Shown in pieces: positions 1,145 through 5,774 of a stretch of DNA of 64,000 bases. The position numbers were made by a program, and so were the translations under genes. Each line of letters starts with the position of its first letter. The stretch's first letter is position 1. The stretch is from Niallia alba (lineage in GTDB: Bacteria > Bacillota > Bacilli > Bacillales > Cytobacillaceae): assembly GCF_012933555.1 (NCBI RefSeq), contig NZ_JABBPK010000001.1, positions 1,590,001-1,654,000 on the forward strand. The letters run 5' to 3'. The notes below the pieces were generated by a model. That model had not been told where the DNA came from, searched no databases, and saw nothing but the letters and a program-made list of their open reading frames with translations.

Positions 1145-1975
1145 TTATTCTCTCAGCAATGGCATAGAACAGCAACGAAAGGATCCACCTGACTTGATGA
1201 TTTCTGAAAAATCCACCTCAATCACGTCATAGCCTCTTTTTTGAAGCTCTTTATTGACTCCTTCGTTCACAGGTAAGCTAATAACCTTTTTATTACCGAT
1301 GGATAATACGTTTGTACCTAATGTCTCTTGCTCTTTTGCATTTACATGGATTAAATCATAGCGATCTCGCAGCATTCTTTCTTTCTCTTTATGAAACTCG
1401 CCTGGGAATATTAATCCTTCTGTAGGGGAAAGTACGTTGAAAACACAATCCAAATGAAGATACGAGTCTGTAAATGGAACAGCGATGACATCATAAGAAG
1501 GAAGTAATGTTTGTAAATGCCGGATAGCAAATTTATTTGTGCGTTGGCTGAGGCCAATATAAATCGTTTTACCGTCAATGATAACATCTCCGCCTTCAAT
1601 CATATTTCCTTTAATATCCGTATAAGTAATCTCCTGTTCCTTCAAATAGTCGATTAAAATTTTCTCTTCTCCACGTCTTACATCTCGGGCCATTTCTGCT
1701 ACAAAGATTTGATTTCCTAAAGTAAAACCAATATCCCTTGTAAATACTTGTTCATGATATTTTTCCACAGGAGGAAGAAGGATTGTTTCAACCCCGTTTT
1801 CTTGCAGCTTTTCAATAAACATTTCATGTTGTTTTTCGGCCACTTTTCGATCGATATTTTTCTTTGCATGTTTTTTTTGAATATCGTTTATAGGAACTTT
1901 AATAGCCATATATTCGGGAGAAACTAAGACGACTGCTTTTAATGGATCATATTCATTCGAGCAATGTACTTTCAT
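1145..1975 (-). CDS. Dimethylarginine dimethylaminohydrolase/amidinotransferase family protein (YkgA-like)
   Basis: The 276-residue protein has the pentein fold of the DDAH/arginine deiminase/amidinotransferase superfamily. Expected residues are present: FTRDIGF (78-84), EGGDV (127-131), the catalytic His in SYLHLD (His174), and the nucleophile Cys near the C-terminus (GGSFRCC, Cys268 or 269). DDAH hydrolyses methylated arginine to citrulline and methylamine; arginine deiminase-like activity is an alternative. The length fits B. subtilis YkgA. The gene is monocistronic and converges on the sugar isomerase gene. The family is secure, the substrate is not. Confidence 0.85.
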   Translation of the reverse strand: MKVHCSNEYDPLKAVVLVSPEYMAIKVPINDIQKKHAKKNIDRKVAEKQHEMFIEKLQENGVETILLPPVEKYHEQVFTRDIGFTLGNQIFVAEMARDVRRGEEKILIDYLKEQEITYTDIKGNMIEGGDVIIDGKTIYIGLSQRTNKFAIRHLQTLLPSYDVIAVPFTDSYLHLDCVFNVLSPTEGLIFPGEFHKEKERMLRDRYDLIHVNAKEQETLGTNVLSIGNKKVISLPVNEGVNKELQKRGYDVIEVDFSEIIKSGGSFRCCSMPLLRE

Positions 1976-2241
1976 GACAAAATCCTTTCCATTGGAGTAT
2001 TGAGAATAGTTTTTCCTTGTTTTTATTTTTTTATGAAGGGAACATGGGAAATCAATTTTATTTCATTTAACGCCCGAGCTCGAGCTGTGGAAAATTAAAA
2101 AAGTCTTTTAAGTTTAAAAGTCAAAGGGGAATGAGGAAAACACCCACTGATGGAAGTTTTCTTTATTGTGAATGAAAGCTGAAATTATTAGAAAAGCAGT
2201 AAAAAAGGAGCAATCGAGTAAACGAAACCTACTATTAAAAA

Positions 2242-2327
2242 GGCTGTTTTCGCAAAAGTTTGTTGCTCCAATTTTCCTACTAATTCTTTTTTCTATTGAA
2301 AAAGCAACAATCCTTTGGAAAACAGCC
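2242..2327. repeat. Long imperfect palindrome, MITE-like
   Basis: The left arm starts GGCTGTTTTCGCAAAAG and the right arm ends with the near complement CCTTTGGAAAACAGCC. The arms match over roughly 27 bases with few mismatches around an AT-rich centre. The form suits a small non-autonomous transposable element or a long RNA hairpin. A link to other Bacillaceae repeats is recalled, not tested. Confidence 0.5.
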
Positions 2328-2368
2328 ATTAAAAATAAGAGGTTGGCAGGAGAATTATGATAACAAAA

Positions 2369-2394
2369 AGCCAGTGAAATATTCTTCACTGGCT
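2369..2394. terminator. Terminator stem, distal copy (left flank of inserted element)
   Basis: This 26-nt stem-loop (arms GCCAGTGAA / TTCACTGGC) is identical to 2648-2673. Read on the minus strand it is followed by CTTTTTG, so it keeps the T-tract that the swrC-proximal copy has lost and probably ends swrC transcripts. Confidence 0.75.
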
Positions 2395-2647
2395 CAGTTT
2401 GTCGACAAAAAGATTTTTAGAAACTTAAATGGAATTTTCATGCGTTGCTTGGAGTGGAAGGGGTGAGACTCCTGTGGGATTAGCGAGACAGCTGAGACCC
2501 TGCAGGCCAAAGGCCGAAGCGGCTCAGCGCGAGCCCCACGGAAAGCGACCCCCTGAAGCGGAAAGCAACATCCCTATTCAAAGAGACTAATAAATATACT
2601 ATAGACAAACCTCTATATCTAAAATTCAGGGATTTGTCTACGGTCTG
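2395..2647 (+). mobile_element. Terminator-embedded repeat element, copy 1 (253 bp)
   Basis: The element is bounded by imperfect terminal inverted repeats (left CAGTTTGTCGACAAA, right end complement CAGACCGTAGACAAA) and by two identical 26-bp copies of a terminator stem. A GC-richer core at about 2451-2568 has the pattern of intergenic repeats common in Bacillaceae. A second copy lies at 30827-31059. It has no coding capacity. The strand given is arbitrary and set to match copy 2. Mobility is inferred from the flanking duplication. Confidence 0.7.
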
Positions 2648-2673
2648 AGCCAGTGAAATATTCTTCACTGGCT
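2648..2673. terminator. Terminator stem, swrC-proximal copy (right flank of inserted element)
   Basis: This is an exact duplicate of 2369-2394, 18 bp past the stop codon of the RND pump. On the minus strand the stem is followed by CAGACC instead of a T-run, so it should be a poor terminator for the pump transcript. Confidence 0.7.
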
Positions 2674-2690
2674 TTTAGTAAAAGTTAATA

Positions 2691-5600
2691 TTAGCTTTCG
2701 TCAATATCTTTACGATTTTTCTTAAATACTTTAGAAAGAACTTCGTAAACAATTGGGACAATAACAAGTGTTAATAGAGTAGAACTGATTAAACCGCCAA
2801 TAACCGTAATACCTAGGTCTTTAGAGATTAATCCGCTACCGCCAGAACCAACTGCTAATGGAACTAATGCTCCGATTGTTGCAATAGCTGTCATTAGAAT
2901 TGGGCGAAGACGTGTTGATCCAGCTTCAAGAATGGCGTCGCGCATATTCATTCCATCGCGTTCCATATGGATGATTCGGTCTACTAATACAATTGCGTTC
3001 GTAACAACGATACCAATTAACATGAGTAATCCCATCATAACCGAAACGGATATCGTTTGACCTGAAAGATATAATCCGACAAAGGAACCAATCACAGCAA
3101 ACGGTAAACTGAACAGGATCGAGAATGGAGCAACCCCTTCACGGAATGTTACAACAAGAATAAAGTATACTATAGCAACAGCAGCAATCATGGCAACACC
3201 TAATTGTGTAAATGTTTCATTCATATCTGCTGCTACACCAGCAACTCCCATTGTAACTCCTTTTGGTAAGTCAATTTTATCAATTTCCTTATCGACTTCG
3301 TTCGTTACTTTGGAAACATCATCACCGAGAATTTTTCCTGATACTGTTGCATAATACTCACCCTTACTACGAGAAAGAGTATTTAAAGTTGTTCCTTCTT
3401 CAACTTCTACTAGTTCAGAAAGTGGCATCGTATTTCCTAGAGCAGTTGGAATTTCCATATCTAGCATTTCGTCAATTGATTTAGGTTGTGCTGATTTTTC
3501 TTGTTGGACAATAACATCAAGTGCTTCGCCATCTTTTTCGATTGTTGTTAATACATCTTTAGTATTGTCTGGGCTTAGCATCATGAGAAGCTGTCCTGCA
3601 GTTAACCCATACTGCAATAATTCATCTTGATTAACTTTAAATGTATATTCTACATAAGCATCTTCAGCAGTTGTAGTAACATCTTCTAATCCATCATTTT
3701 CTTTTAAAATGTCTTCTACTTTTTTCACAGACTCATTAAGTTTATCTAAATCTTCACTGTAGAATGTATAGCTAACTTCATTTGTTGACATCCCCATGGA
3801 TGTGAAGTCTTGTGTTTTCCATTCGCCAGATTGATCGATATTTGTAATATAGTCCTCAATTTCATCGCGGACTTCAGGGAAGTTTTTCATATCTTCATCA
3901 AAGATTAGGTACATAAGTGCACCGCCAGATCCCATACCCATCATCGCACTTTGTGCATCTGCTGTCTCATTGATAGATAATTGAACAATATCAATATCTT
4001 TGCGTTCAAGCATTTTTTCTTCTACTTCTGTAACGTTCTTTAATGTCTCATCCTTTAATTCACCAGTTTCTGGTGTATAGGTGATATACATTGTTTTTTC
4101 TTCTTCACTTCCTAAGAAGCTAAAGCCAATTAACGGAGTAAGAGCAACACTTCCGGCTAATAAAACAACAGCGATAAGGGAAGTGATGATTTTATGGTTA
4201 AGAGCTTTTTCAAGAATGCCTTTATACCAATTTGCCAATTTACCTGCATCTTTATGATTACTTTCTGTTTTCTCACCATATAATTTTTTCTTAAATAAGA
4301 AATGAGAAAGAGCAGGTACAATTGTAATCGCAACAAGTAGTGATGCTCCAAGTGAAAATGCCATTGTTAATGCGAAAGGACGGAATAGCTCTCCCACCAT
4401 TCCCCCAACGAACATTAATGGAGCGAATACAGCAACTGTTACTAAAGTTGAAGAAAGGATTGGTTTAAACATTTCAATCGTCGCTTCTCTAATTAGCGCA
4501 CGGCCGGTTAATTTTTCTTCTTTCAGGTGCAAGCGTCGGTAAATATTCTCAACAACAACAATAGAGTCATCGATAACCCGGCCAATCGCAACAGTGATAG
4601 CACCAAGTGTCATGATATTTAACGTAATATCCATCCAGTTTAATAGCATTAATGCCATGAAAATAGAAACTGGGATAGAAATAATGGAAATTATCGTTGA
4701 TTTAAAATCACGTAAGAATAGTAAAATAATTAATACGGCAATTAAACAACCAAACACCGCTTTTTCAATCATCGTAAATACAGATTCTTCAATTGGAGCC
4801 CCTTGGTCTAGGGAAACATCAATTACTAATCCATCGATATTCTTTTGCTCATCTTTAATTAAATCTTTTACACTGTTAACAACATCAACAGTGTTTGCTT
4901 GTTGACCTTTGACAATTTGGATGGCAATAGCATCTTCACCATTTGTACGAGAAACAGATTCAACTTTCCCAACCACTTCGATTGTGGCAATATCACTAAG
5001 TTTAACAAATGGGGATGGATTTTGTTCAGAAGGAGTGACAGGGATAAGCATATCTTTAAGTTCTTTTTCTGTCATAAACTTACCATCAATTGCAACTGCC
5101 TGTTCGCCTTCTTCAAACTCATAAAGTCCTAAAGAAACAGCTAAATTACTTGCTTGGATCATATCTTTAACAGTGTCTTCTGTTAAATCTAATTGTTCCA
5201 TTTTTTCCTTATCATATGTTAAATCTACTTCTTCGATATGTTGTCCGGTAATCGTTGCAGATGCAACACCATCAATCTTTTCAATCTTCGGAAGGATGAT
5301 TTCTTCAACAGTTGATGTTAATTCAGTAATATCTTCTTCTGTACTGCTGACACTTAACGCTACAACTGGCATCATATTCATACTGATTGCTGTGATTGTA
5401 GGTTCCTGTGCGCCGTCAGGCAAGGTGATATTATCTAGAGCGGATTGTAAAGCACGTTTTGCTTCATCCATATCTGTACCATATTCATATTCTAATTGAA
5501 CATTTGCCATGTTCGAATAAGAATTCGAATAAACAGCTTTCACATCTTCTAGATTTTCCACAAGTTTTTCTATCGGCATGGATACTTCTTCCATCACCTT

Positions 5601-5774
5601 TTCCGGTGTTGCTCCCGGATAAACATCCATTACCGTTAAGTATGGAATCGAAATGTTCGGTATGGTCTCCATATTCATTCTTGTACCAGAATAGATACCT
5701 GATACAGTAATAATAATGGTTAGTAACCAAACCGCTAGCTTGTTACCTAACACAAAATTTACTAAACCTTTCAT
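2691..5774 (-). CDS. swrC: RND-family efflux pump, SwrC (YerP)-like
   Basis: The 1027-residue inner-membrane protein is of the AcrB/HAE1 RND superfamily. There is a TM helix at 12-30, a first extracytoplasmic loop, a TM cluster including GRVIDDSIVVVENIYR (proton-relay Asp pair), a second loop, and a C-terminal TM cluster. Length and organisation fit B. subtilis SwrC, which exports surfactin and other amphiphiles and is needed for swarming. The start ATG has an AAGGGAAGGTG site. It diverges from a TetR gene, as in yerO-swrC, across a shared operator. Its 3' end runs into the terminator-embedded element. The substrate in this organism is unknown. Confidence 0.9.
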   Translation of the reverse strand: MKGLVNFVLGNKLAVWLLTIIITVSGIYSGTRMNMETIPNISIPYLTVMDVYPGATPEKVMEEVSMPIEKLVENLEDVKAVYSNSYSNMANVQLEYEYGTDMDEAKRALQSALDNITLPDGAQEPTITAISMNMMPVVALSVSSTEEDITELTSTVEEIILPKIEKIDGVASATITGQHIEEVDLTYDKEKMEQLDLTEDTVKDMIQASNLAVSLGLYEFEEGEQAVAIDGKFMTEKELKDMLIPVTPSEQNPSPFVKLSDIATIEVVGKVESVSRTNGEDAIAIQIVKGQQANTVDVVNSVKDLIKDEQKNIDGLVIDVSLDQGAPIEESVFTMIEKAVFGCLIAVLIILLFLRDFKSTIISIISIPVSIFMALMLLNWMDITLNIMTLGAITVAIGRVIDDSIVVVENIYRRLHLKEEKLTGRALIREATIEMFKPILSSTLVTVAVFAPLMFVGGMVGELFRPFALTMAFSLGASLLVAITIVPALSHFLFKKKLYGEKTESNHKDAGKLANWYKGILEKALNHKIITSLIAVVLLAGSVALTPLIGFSFLGSEEEKTMYITYTPETGELKDETLKNVTEVEEKMLERKDIDIVQLSINETADAQSAMMGMGSGGALMYLIFDEDMKNFPEVRDEIEDYITNIDQSGEWKTQDFTSMGMSTNEVSYTFYSEDLDKLNESVKKVEDILKENDGLEDVTTTAEDAYVEYTFKVNQDELLQYGLTAGQLLMMLSPDNTKDVLTTIEKDGEALDVIVQQEKSAQPKSIDEMLDMEIPTALGNTMPLSELVEVEEGTTLNTLSRSKGEYYATVSGKILGDDVSKVTNEVDKEIDKIDLPKGVTMGVAGVAADMNETFTQLGVAMIAAVAIVYFILVVTFREGVAPFSILFSLPFAVIGSFVGLYLSGQTISVSVMMGLLMLIGIVVTNAIVLVDRIIHMERDGMNMRDAILEAGSTRLRPILMTAIATIGALVPLAVGSGGSGLISKDLGITVIGGLISSTLLTLVIVPIVYEVLSKVFKKNRKDIDES

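Follow-up and report, generated by a model that had tools for sequence, protein, structure and literature searches.

The element studied here lies in a 64,000-nucleotide stretch of the Niallia alba genome (contig NZ_JABBPK010000001.1, positions 1,590,001 to 1,654,000 of the forward strand), to which we refer as the window. It sits behind a gene for an RND efflux permease, between two copies of that gene's terminator hairpin. The features of the locus are as follows (window coordinates):

2369 to 2394, no strand: far copy of the terminator hairpin, duplicated target, 26 bp (sequence AGCCAGTGAAATATTCTTCACTGGCT, direct-repeat check, terminator-like site 2395-2368 on the minus strand)
2395 to 2647, plus strand: element of 253 bp, putative non-autonomous MITE of the IS1182 family (sequence, related copies in its own genome and in the genus, empty site L078/L372)
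2395 to 2409, plus strand: left terminal inverted repeat CAGTTTGTCGACAAA (sequence, exact matches to CAGNNTGTNGACAAA across the genus)
2444 to 2569, no strand: internal cargo, an abundant palindromic repeat GTTGCTT..AAGCAAC (boundaries set by eye; the middle, 2466-2548, also matches elsewhere)
2633 to 2647, minus strand: right terminal inverted repeat CAGACCGTAGACAAA (sequence, partner-end search)
2648 to 2673, no strand: near copy of the terminator hairpin, duplicated target, 26 bp (sequence AGCCAGTGAAATATTCTTCACTGGCT, direct-repeat check, terminator scan)
2691 to 5774, minus strand: RND efflux permease gene (swrC-like), whose terminator was the target of the element (ORF, RND permease family matches)

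The first-pass annotation had described a 253-bp element with imperfect inverted ends between identical 26-bp hairpin copies, and both the sequence and a direct-repeat check agree with this description. Specifically, AGCCAGTGAAATATTCTTCACTGGCT at 2369-2394 occurs identically again at 2648-2673, with exactly 253 bp in between (2395-2647), and a chance repeat is excluded, since a score of at least 8 was reached in 0 of 2353 control flank pairs. The element starts with CAGTTTGTCGACAAA and finishes with TTTGTCTACGGTCTG (reverse complement CAGACCGTAGACAAA), its inverted ends being imperfect and of the CAG..GACAAA type. Open reading frames inside it or just past its edge are short (62 aa at most), and no transposase gene is found among them. 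The gene at 2691-5774 matched RND efflux permease models with scores that in every case stayed under the curated cut-off; the name swrC comes from the earlier sequence-only reading, and the model support is for an RND efflux permease only. The Rfam names returned for the region (microRNA and tsr24) were taken as chance, all matches lying below gathering scores. A second palindromic stretch was seen beside the element, at about 2237-2332.

The two hairpin copies differ in what follows them. On the minus strand, the near copy (2648-2673) is followed by CAGACCGT, which holds no T-run, whereas the far copy is followed by the T-run of TTTTGTTATC, just as had been claimed from the first reading. A terminator scan of 2000-2900 returned the far copy as the sole terminator-like site, against an average of 0.7 in shuffles, such that the scan alone is weak evidence. 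Because the first hairpin met by the RND-gene transcript has no U-tract, we predict that this transcript should read through the element and end just below position 2369. The stretch 2360-2680, taken as minus-strand RNA, folds strongly (-119.1 kcal/mol, z -6.67), and its minimum-energy fold pairs the near hairpin copy with the far copy. According to this folding model, such pairing could compete with the terminator hairpin and weaken termination at the far copy.

A related genome, G004, which is 99% identical over a 727-base query, carries a single hairpin and no element at the corresponding locus (...GATAACAAAAAGCCAGTGAAATATTCTTCACTGGCTTTTAGTAAAAG..., L078 and L372). The window copy is thus an insertion relative to an empty site, with the target exactly duplicated, as is expected of a MITE. 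By eye, G004 (L078) also has an extra repeat with CGCAGCCGGAATACAC ends at about window position 2262, where the window has none. To extend the comparison, empty sites were predicted for 13 copies in the window's own genome that show a duplication, and were searched in five relatives. For 10 of the 13, the window copy included, at least one relative has a continuous site with a single hairpin recognisable by eye, the kind of empty site that the first-pass annotation had proposed to look for; nine of these ten rest on more distant relatives (72-87% alignment identity), in which the hairpins have partly drifted. The other three comprise one copy for which a relative lacks a hairpin at the site (L400), one that gave no continuous match (744715), and one (1989255) for which two relatives hold an element of a different end type in an apparently orthologous terminator. 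Among the sites met in this search, no relative carried two hairpins without the element. The third case (G000 C1:1989255 against G001 C2:279411 and G002 C1:643878) reflects either repeated insertion into the same hairpin or one subtype replacing another.

These comparisons bear on the reading that the hairpins are part of the element, as terminators at its ends, or that they arose by a later tandem duplication without insertion. It is true that both copies abut the element ends exactly. However, relatives have the hairpin without the element, and the hairpin sequence varies among loci and agrees within each locus. Together, the empty sites and the locus-to-locus differences refute hairpins as part of the element, and we give this reading virtually no credence.

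Duplicated hairpins are not peculiar to the window. Exact matches to CAGNNTGTNGACAAA number 148 in 11 of 13 genomes of the genus, and all 148 were retrieved together with flanking sequence (126 stretches). In 74 of the 148, a perfect stem of 6 pairs or more terminates no further than 3 nt from the edge of the element, compared with 21 of 1956 control positions, and when mismatches are allowed, stems abut the ends in 91 of 148, compared with 44 of 1462 controls. Partner ends were sought for all 148 matches, which gave 127 pairs and left 2 matches without a partner. With all partners allowed, a direct repeat of score at least 10 flanks 43 of the 127 pairs, many of the poorer partner ends probably being chance matches. 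When the partner end has at most 1 mismatch, flanks are duplicated in 36 of 54 of these well-bounded elements, compared with 0 of 2353 control flank pairs, so that the comparison of genomic copies with their flanks, proposed at the first pass, comes out in favour of hairpin duplication. By genome, and for good partners, the counts are 12/15 (G000), 5/9 (G001), 12/15 (G002), 4/9 (G005), 3/5 (G008) and 0/1 (G009). The remaining 18 of the 54 fall below the duplication threshold, and several of them have decayed hairpin copies by eye.

The element is short, has no transposase gene, bears terminal inverted repeats and is present in many dispersed copies, which are the properties of a MITE. Its likely mobiliser belongs to the IS1182 family. 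Within the genus, window-type ends lie on both sides of IS1182-transposase fragments in G001 C1, G001 C6 and G005 C78, and one window-type end lies beside such fragments in G005 C31 and G008 C1. An intact 450-aa transposase, P0001 (G006), matches NF033551 with 488 bits (cut-off 270) and has the DDE domain PF13751; the fragments in G005 C31 and G008 C1 are 46-52% identical to it, and that in G005 C78 32%. The P0001 element measures 1576 bp, has ends resembling those of the window element, CAGCTTGTAGAGAAA/TTTCTCGACAGCCTG, and is flanked on both sides by a duplicated 29-bp hairpin, AGGGAATGATTCATAAAGAATCATTCCCT (L090). In the genome of the window itself, a single IS1182 match has ends of this type (L038), and its transposase frame is split in two. 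No intact transposase with window-type ends was found in the genus among the 42 IS1182 loci whose ends were examined.

Judged by family membership, a transposase over the family cut-off is absent from the 253-bp element and present in the related full-length element as P0001. Because it has no transposase of its own, we file the 253-bp element as an IS1182 derivative. Its ends are common to IS1182-transposase-encoding elements, namely the genus remnants and full-length loci with CAGACTGTAGACAAA ends, and its target is palindromic, as for some members of the family. Another transposase as mobiliser was rejected, given that the remnants are IS1182. On these features, which are read from sequence, we classify the element as a non-autonomous MITE of the IS1182 family. 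No solved structure was matched by the transposase sequence, and no argument is based on the transposase tree, which gave implausibly long branches for some genus rows.

Several further repeats and IS1182 copies were noted. The core 14-mer of the cargo repeat (GAGACTCCTGTGGGATTAGCGAGACAG...) occurs at up to 1 mismatch in 135 places of its own genome, and its reversed control in 0. The cargo core is found with other ends as well; the three cases viewed (L028-L030) are bounded by inverted ATACAC/GTGTAT-type sequence. Five loci (L031, L032, L091, L094 and L106, the first two from the same genome as the window) hold IS1182-family elements whose ends, GAGGCTGGGACA..TGTCCCAGCCTC, resemble a terminator; A- and T-runs adjoin some of these elements, and the flanks viewed contained no target duplication. 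These GAGGCTGGGACA-ended elements possibly use a replacement mode; an empty-site search for them gave one collinear flank pair, from a distant relative (L407/L414), with no clear hairpin between the flanks. Finally, five IS1182-like copies in the genome of the window (L033-L037) have identical transposase match scores, TCAATTTCATAA-like ends and no obvious hairpin target, and are apparently recent.

We also looked beyond the genus. A scan with an IS1182 alignment, using one genome per species, found at least 533 relatives, of which the best 80 were kept. Their boundaries were set by scoring inverted ends and flanking repeat jointly while ignoring hairpins, which biases this sample towards repeats but not towards hairpins. 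Of these 80 loci (the best 80 of at least 533), 48 are flanked by a direct repeat that scores at least 9 and measures 16-36 bp, and all 48 repeats are perfect with the exception of L306. The 48 duplicated loci come from Neobacillus, Cytobacillus, Metabacillus, Lysinibacillus, Paenibacillus and Cohnella, among others, and also include Enterococcus mundtii, Exiguobacterium, a Selenomonadales bin and three proteobacterial records (L306, L309, L312). The ends of several of these 48 are precisely of the window type, CAGACTGTAGACAAA; many Bacillota contain full-length IS1182 elements with ends of this kind. As such, hairpin duplication is general rather than a property of one locus. Among the 32 of 80 loci for which no duplication reached a score of 9, some are truncated at a contig end, others have unresolved ends, and two Dechloromonas copies have hairpins with unmatched flanks. 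In the latter (D. denitrificans, L319 and L320), the hairpin in the left flank of one copy is almost the same as that in the right flank of the other, suggesting that the two IS copies have recombined. In Paenibacillus apiarius, three IS1182-family copies (L303, L304, L305) lie inside small hairpins of which only the 6-bp loop is apparently duplicated (one instance reads AACTGC-ACTTTT, IS, ACTTTT-GCAGTT; L303 has an imperfect stem).

Most of the duplicated blocks are hairpins over their full length. Among their outer 6 positions, on average 4.6 are paired in the 43 genus elements and 5.56 in the 48 IS loci, compared with 1.2-1.9 at any shift of 1-5 bp and 1.6 in shuffled sequence. At least 5 of the outer 6 are paired in 32 of 43 genus blocks and 44 of 48 IS loci, which leaves 11 of the 43 genus blocks with fewer than 5, and 33 of 43 and 37 of 48, respectively, have A..T as their outermost pair. 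For the analysis of length, 90 of the 91 blocks were used, one of less than 15 bp being left out, and 3 of the 90 contain no G:C pair, leaving 87. The duplication measures 15-44 bp in these 90 blocks, and its length follows the G:C-to-G:C span of the hairpin (rho 0.75). The 24-28 bp given in the first-pass annotation is therefore not a fixed length. In 74 of 87 blocks, 1-3 A:T pairs lie between the outermost G:C pair and the edge of the block. Pairing could continue past the edge by one or more Watson-Crick pairs in 65 of 90, with a G:C pair among them in only 9 of 90; consequently, the longest stem that could form often extends beyond the point of cutting.

Could the duplication instead be roughly fixed and long, combined with a mere preference for dyad-centred sequence, hairpin length being irrelevant? 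In IS1202, the duplication is said to be about 24-29 bp. The commonest lengths in our data, 20-28 bp, account for 67 of the 90, and a dyad-binding preference would centre the duplication too. Against this stand the spread of lengths, their correlation with hairpin span, and the edges placed 1-3 A:T pairs outside the G:C stem, none of which suggests a duplication confined to the IS1202 range, and the transposase remnants, which are of the IS1182 family. We regard a fixed-length mechanism as very improbable. Since the duplication tracks hairpin length, a fixed stagger on linear duplex is hard to reconcile with the data, and a mechanism that recognises hairpins is well supported.

Most of the targets look like terminators, given that a T-run or A-run adjoins 38 of 43 genus blocks and 43 of 48 IS loci (background 0.174). 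At least 5 T in 8 bases are found in 1 of 182 near-copy tails, compared with 121 of 182 far-copy tails; a few of the far tails are truncated, as fewer than 8 flank bases were stored for 2 of the 43 genus blocks, which also affects the one-sided T and A counts. Thus, whichever strand is considered, the T-run stays with the far copy after insertion, and no orientation bias of the IS relative to the T-run is visible (32 of 48 on each side). The frequency of these runs is also what one would see if transcription termination were recognised, through a paused polymerase or the transcript, with terminators rather than DNA structure as the true target. However, 5 of 43 and 5 of 48 blocks have no such run at the threshold, and in such genomes a strong dyad will probably often be a terminator in any case. 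In addition, one published TnSha1 insertion lies in a coding region, and some others lie in intergenic hairpins (PMC4923244). We therefore consider recognition of termination unlikely, though less so than a fixed-length duplication. The claim that the mechanism recognises terminator hairpins survives as far as the hairpin is concerned, because duplication length tracks it; the recognised feature is probably the hairpin and not termination as such.

The first reading had also called the hairpin-sized duplication unusual for known insertion sequences, a view that needs correcting: the likely mobiliser is of the IS1182 type, a family whose targeting of hairpins has been described in print (PMC4923244, PMC5678879). 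IS1272 and TnSha1, IS1182-family elements of staphylococci, insert into hairpins, several of which are mapped terminators (Furi et al. 2016, PMC4923244; Wan et al. 2017, PMC5678879). Both papers credit Siguier et al. with palindromic targets for some IS1182 members. In these insertions, the hairpin is partly deleted or replaced, and no target duplication arises. The window element thus resembles IS1272 and TnSha1 in transposase family, hairpin targets, absence of a sequence consensus and variable target size, but differs in that the hairpin is lost without duplication there and duplicated entire here. An IS1272-type stem-loop replacement does not fit the window, where a whole hairpin stands on both sides, as it does in most bounded copies. 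The scheme drawn for IS1272 in PMC5678879 proposes pathway a (3' feet) to explain replacement, and shows pathway b, whole-hairpin duplication, as hypothetical, and pathway c (loop) as one that would duplicate the loop. The 5'-feet joining that we propose for the window element is pathway b of that scheme, and the 6-bp loop duplications of P. apiarius resemble the loop-duplication pathway.

Within the IS1182 family, the kinship of the window element rests on the NF033551 match of P0001, a member of the likely mobiliser group, and on the duplicated flanks of the family loci described above, while the window element differs in being only a non-autonomous derivative that carries an unrelated palindromic repeat. 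Duplication lengths in this family are reportedly wide-ranging in ISfinder (0-60). With bacterial MITEs, it shares short length, lack of a transposase, inverted ends common with an IS, many copies and target duplications. In bacterial MITEs in general, the target duplication is short and of fixed length, unlike that of the window element, whose target is a hairpin and whose duplication is hairpin-sized and variable. Group IIC introns also use terminator hairpins as targets; they are retroelements that act by reverse splicing and leave no target duplication. Such an intron does not account for the window element, in which the duplication is present and for which no Rfam intron match was found in 1900-3000 at E up to 1. 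The SMR-A small mobile repeats of Haloquadratum are likewise small, have inverted ends and insert within palindromes, but they are archaeal, their palindromes are those of IS605-type elements and PATEs, and they make no target duplication (PMC3119063).

Altogether, we think it very probable that the element is a MITE moved in trans by an IS1182-family DDE transposase, and that the hairpin guided its insertion and was duplicated whole, with termination predicted to be kept at the far copy. In the proposed mechanism, the transposase would mobilise the MITE into the intrinsic terminator behind the RND-efflux gene, guided by a hairpin-forming dyad and not by sequence. On each strand, one of the element's two 3' ends would be joined at the hairpin's 5' foot, which usually lies 1-3 A:T pairs beyond the G:C stem, and gap repair would then copy the whole hairpin, giving a target duplication of one hairpin of any length. 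The outcomes of insertion, from which both the substrate and the strand-transfer positions are deduced, point to an extruded cruciform or paired hairpins as the likeliest geometry, in which the two 5' feet would be neighbours at the junction whatever the stem length. Neighbouring feet and a fixed active-site spacing would make duplications of 15-44 bp possible. With the stem alone duplicated, a T-run would remain on the outer side only of each copy, and the element would join the 3' untranslated region, with termination at the far copy.

More tentatively, and with somewhat less than an even chance of being right in full, a widespread branch of IS1182-type DDE transposases, together with its MITEs, may pick its target by DNA shape. 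The transposase would read the four-way junction of an extruded hairpin and transfer to the 5' feet, with exactly one hairpin copied whatever its length; other branches would use the 3' feet (replacement, as in IS1272) or the loop (6 bp, as three P. apiarius copies suggest), such that one family would employ all three pathways of the hypothetical scheme already published. Terminators would then serve as safe harbours, with termination moved to the far copy.

A literature search turned up no published case of an IS1182 element duplicating a whole hairpin, nor of a MITE duplicating a terminator, although ISfinder entries may already list such repeats. As far as this search goes, the novelty lies in the MITE, in the consistent duplication of whole hairpins with its length rule and A:T foot, and in the T-run that stays with the far copy. 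A duplication length set by the secondary structure of the target is not explained by a usual DDE transposase with a fixed stagger, and dozens of separate insertions form a natural record of transposase cut positions relative to the hairpin. This makes it testable whether DNA hairpins or cruciforms of terminators live long enough in cells to be used. For annotators, hairpin-sized repeats can serve to locate such elements and their true ends. The practical rule suggested by our results is that an insertion of this kind does not harm the gene, keeps a T-run next to one of the hairpin copies and extends the 3' untranslated region by the element.
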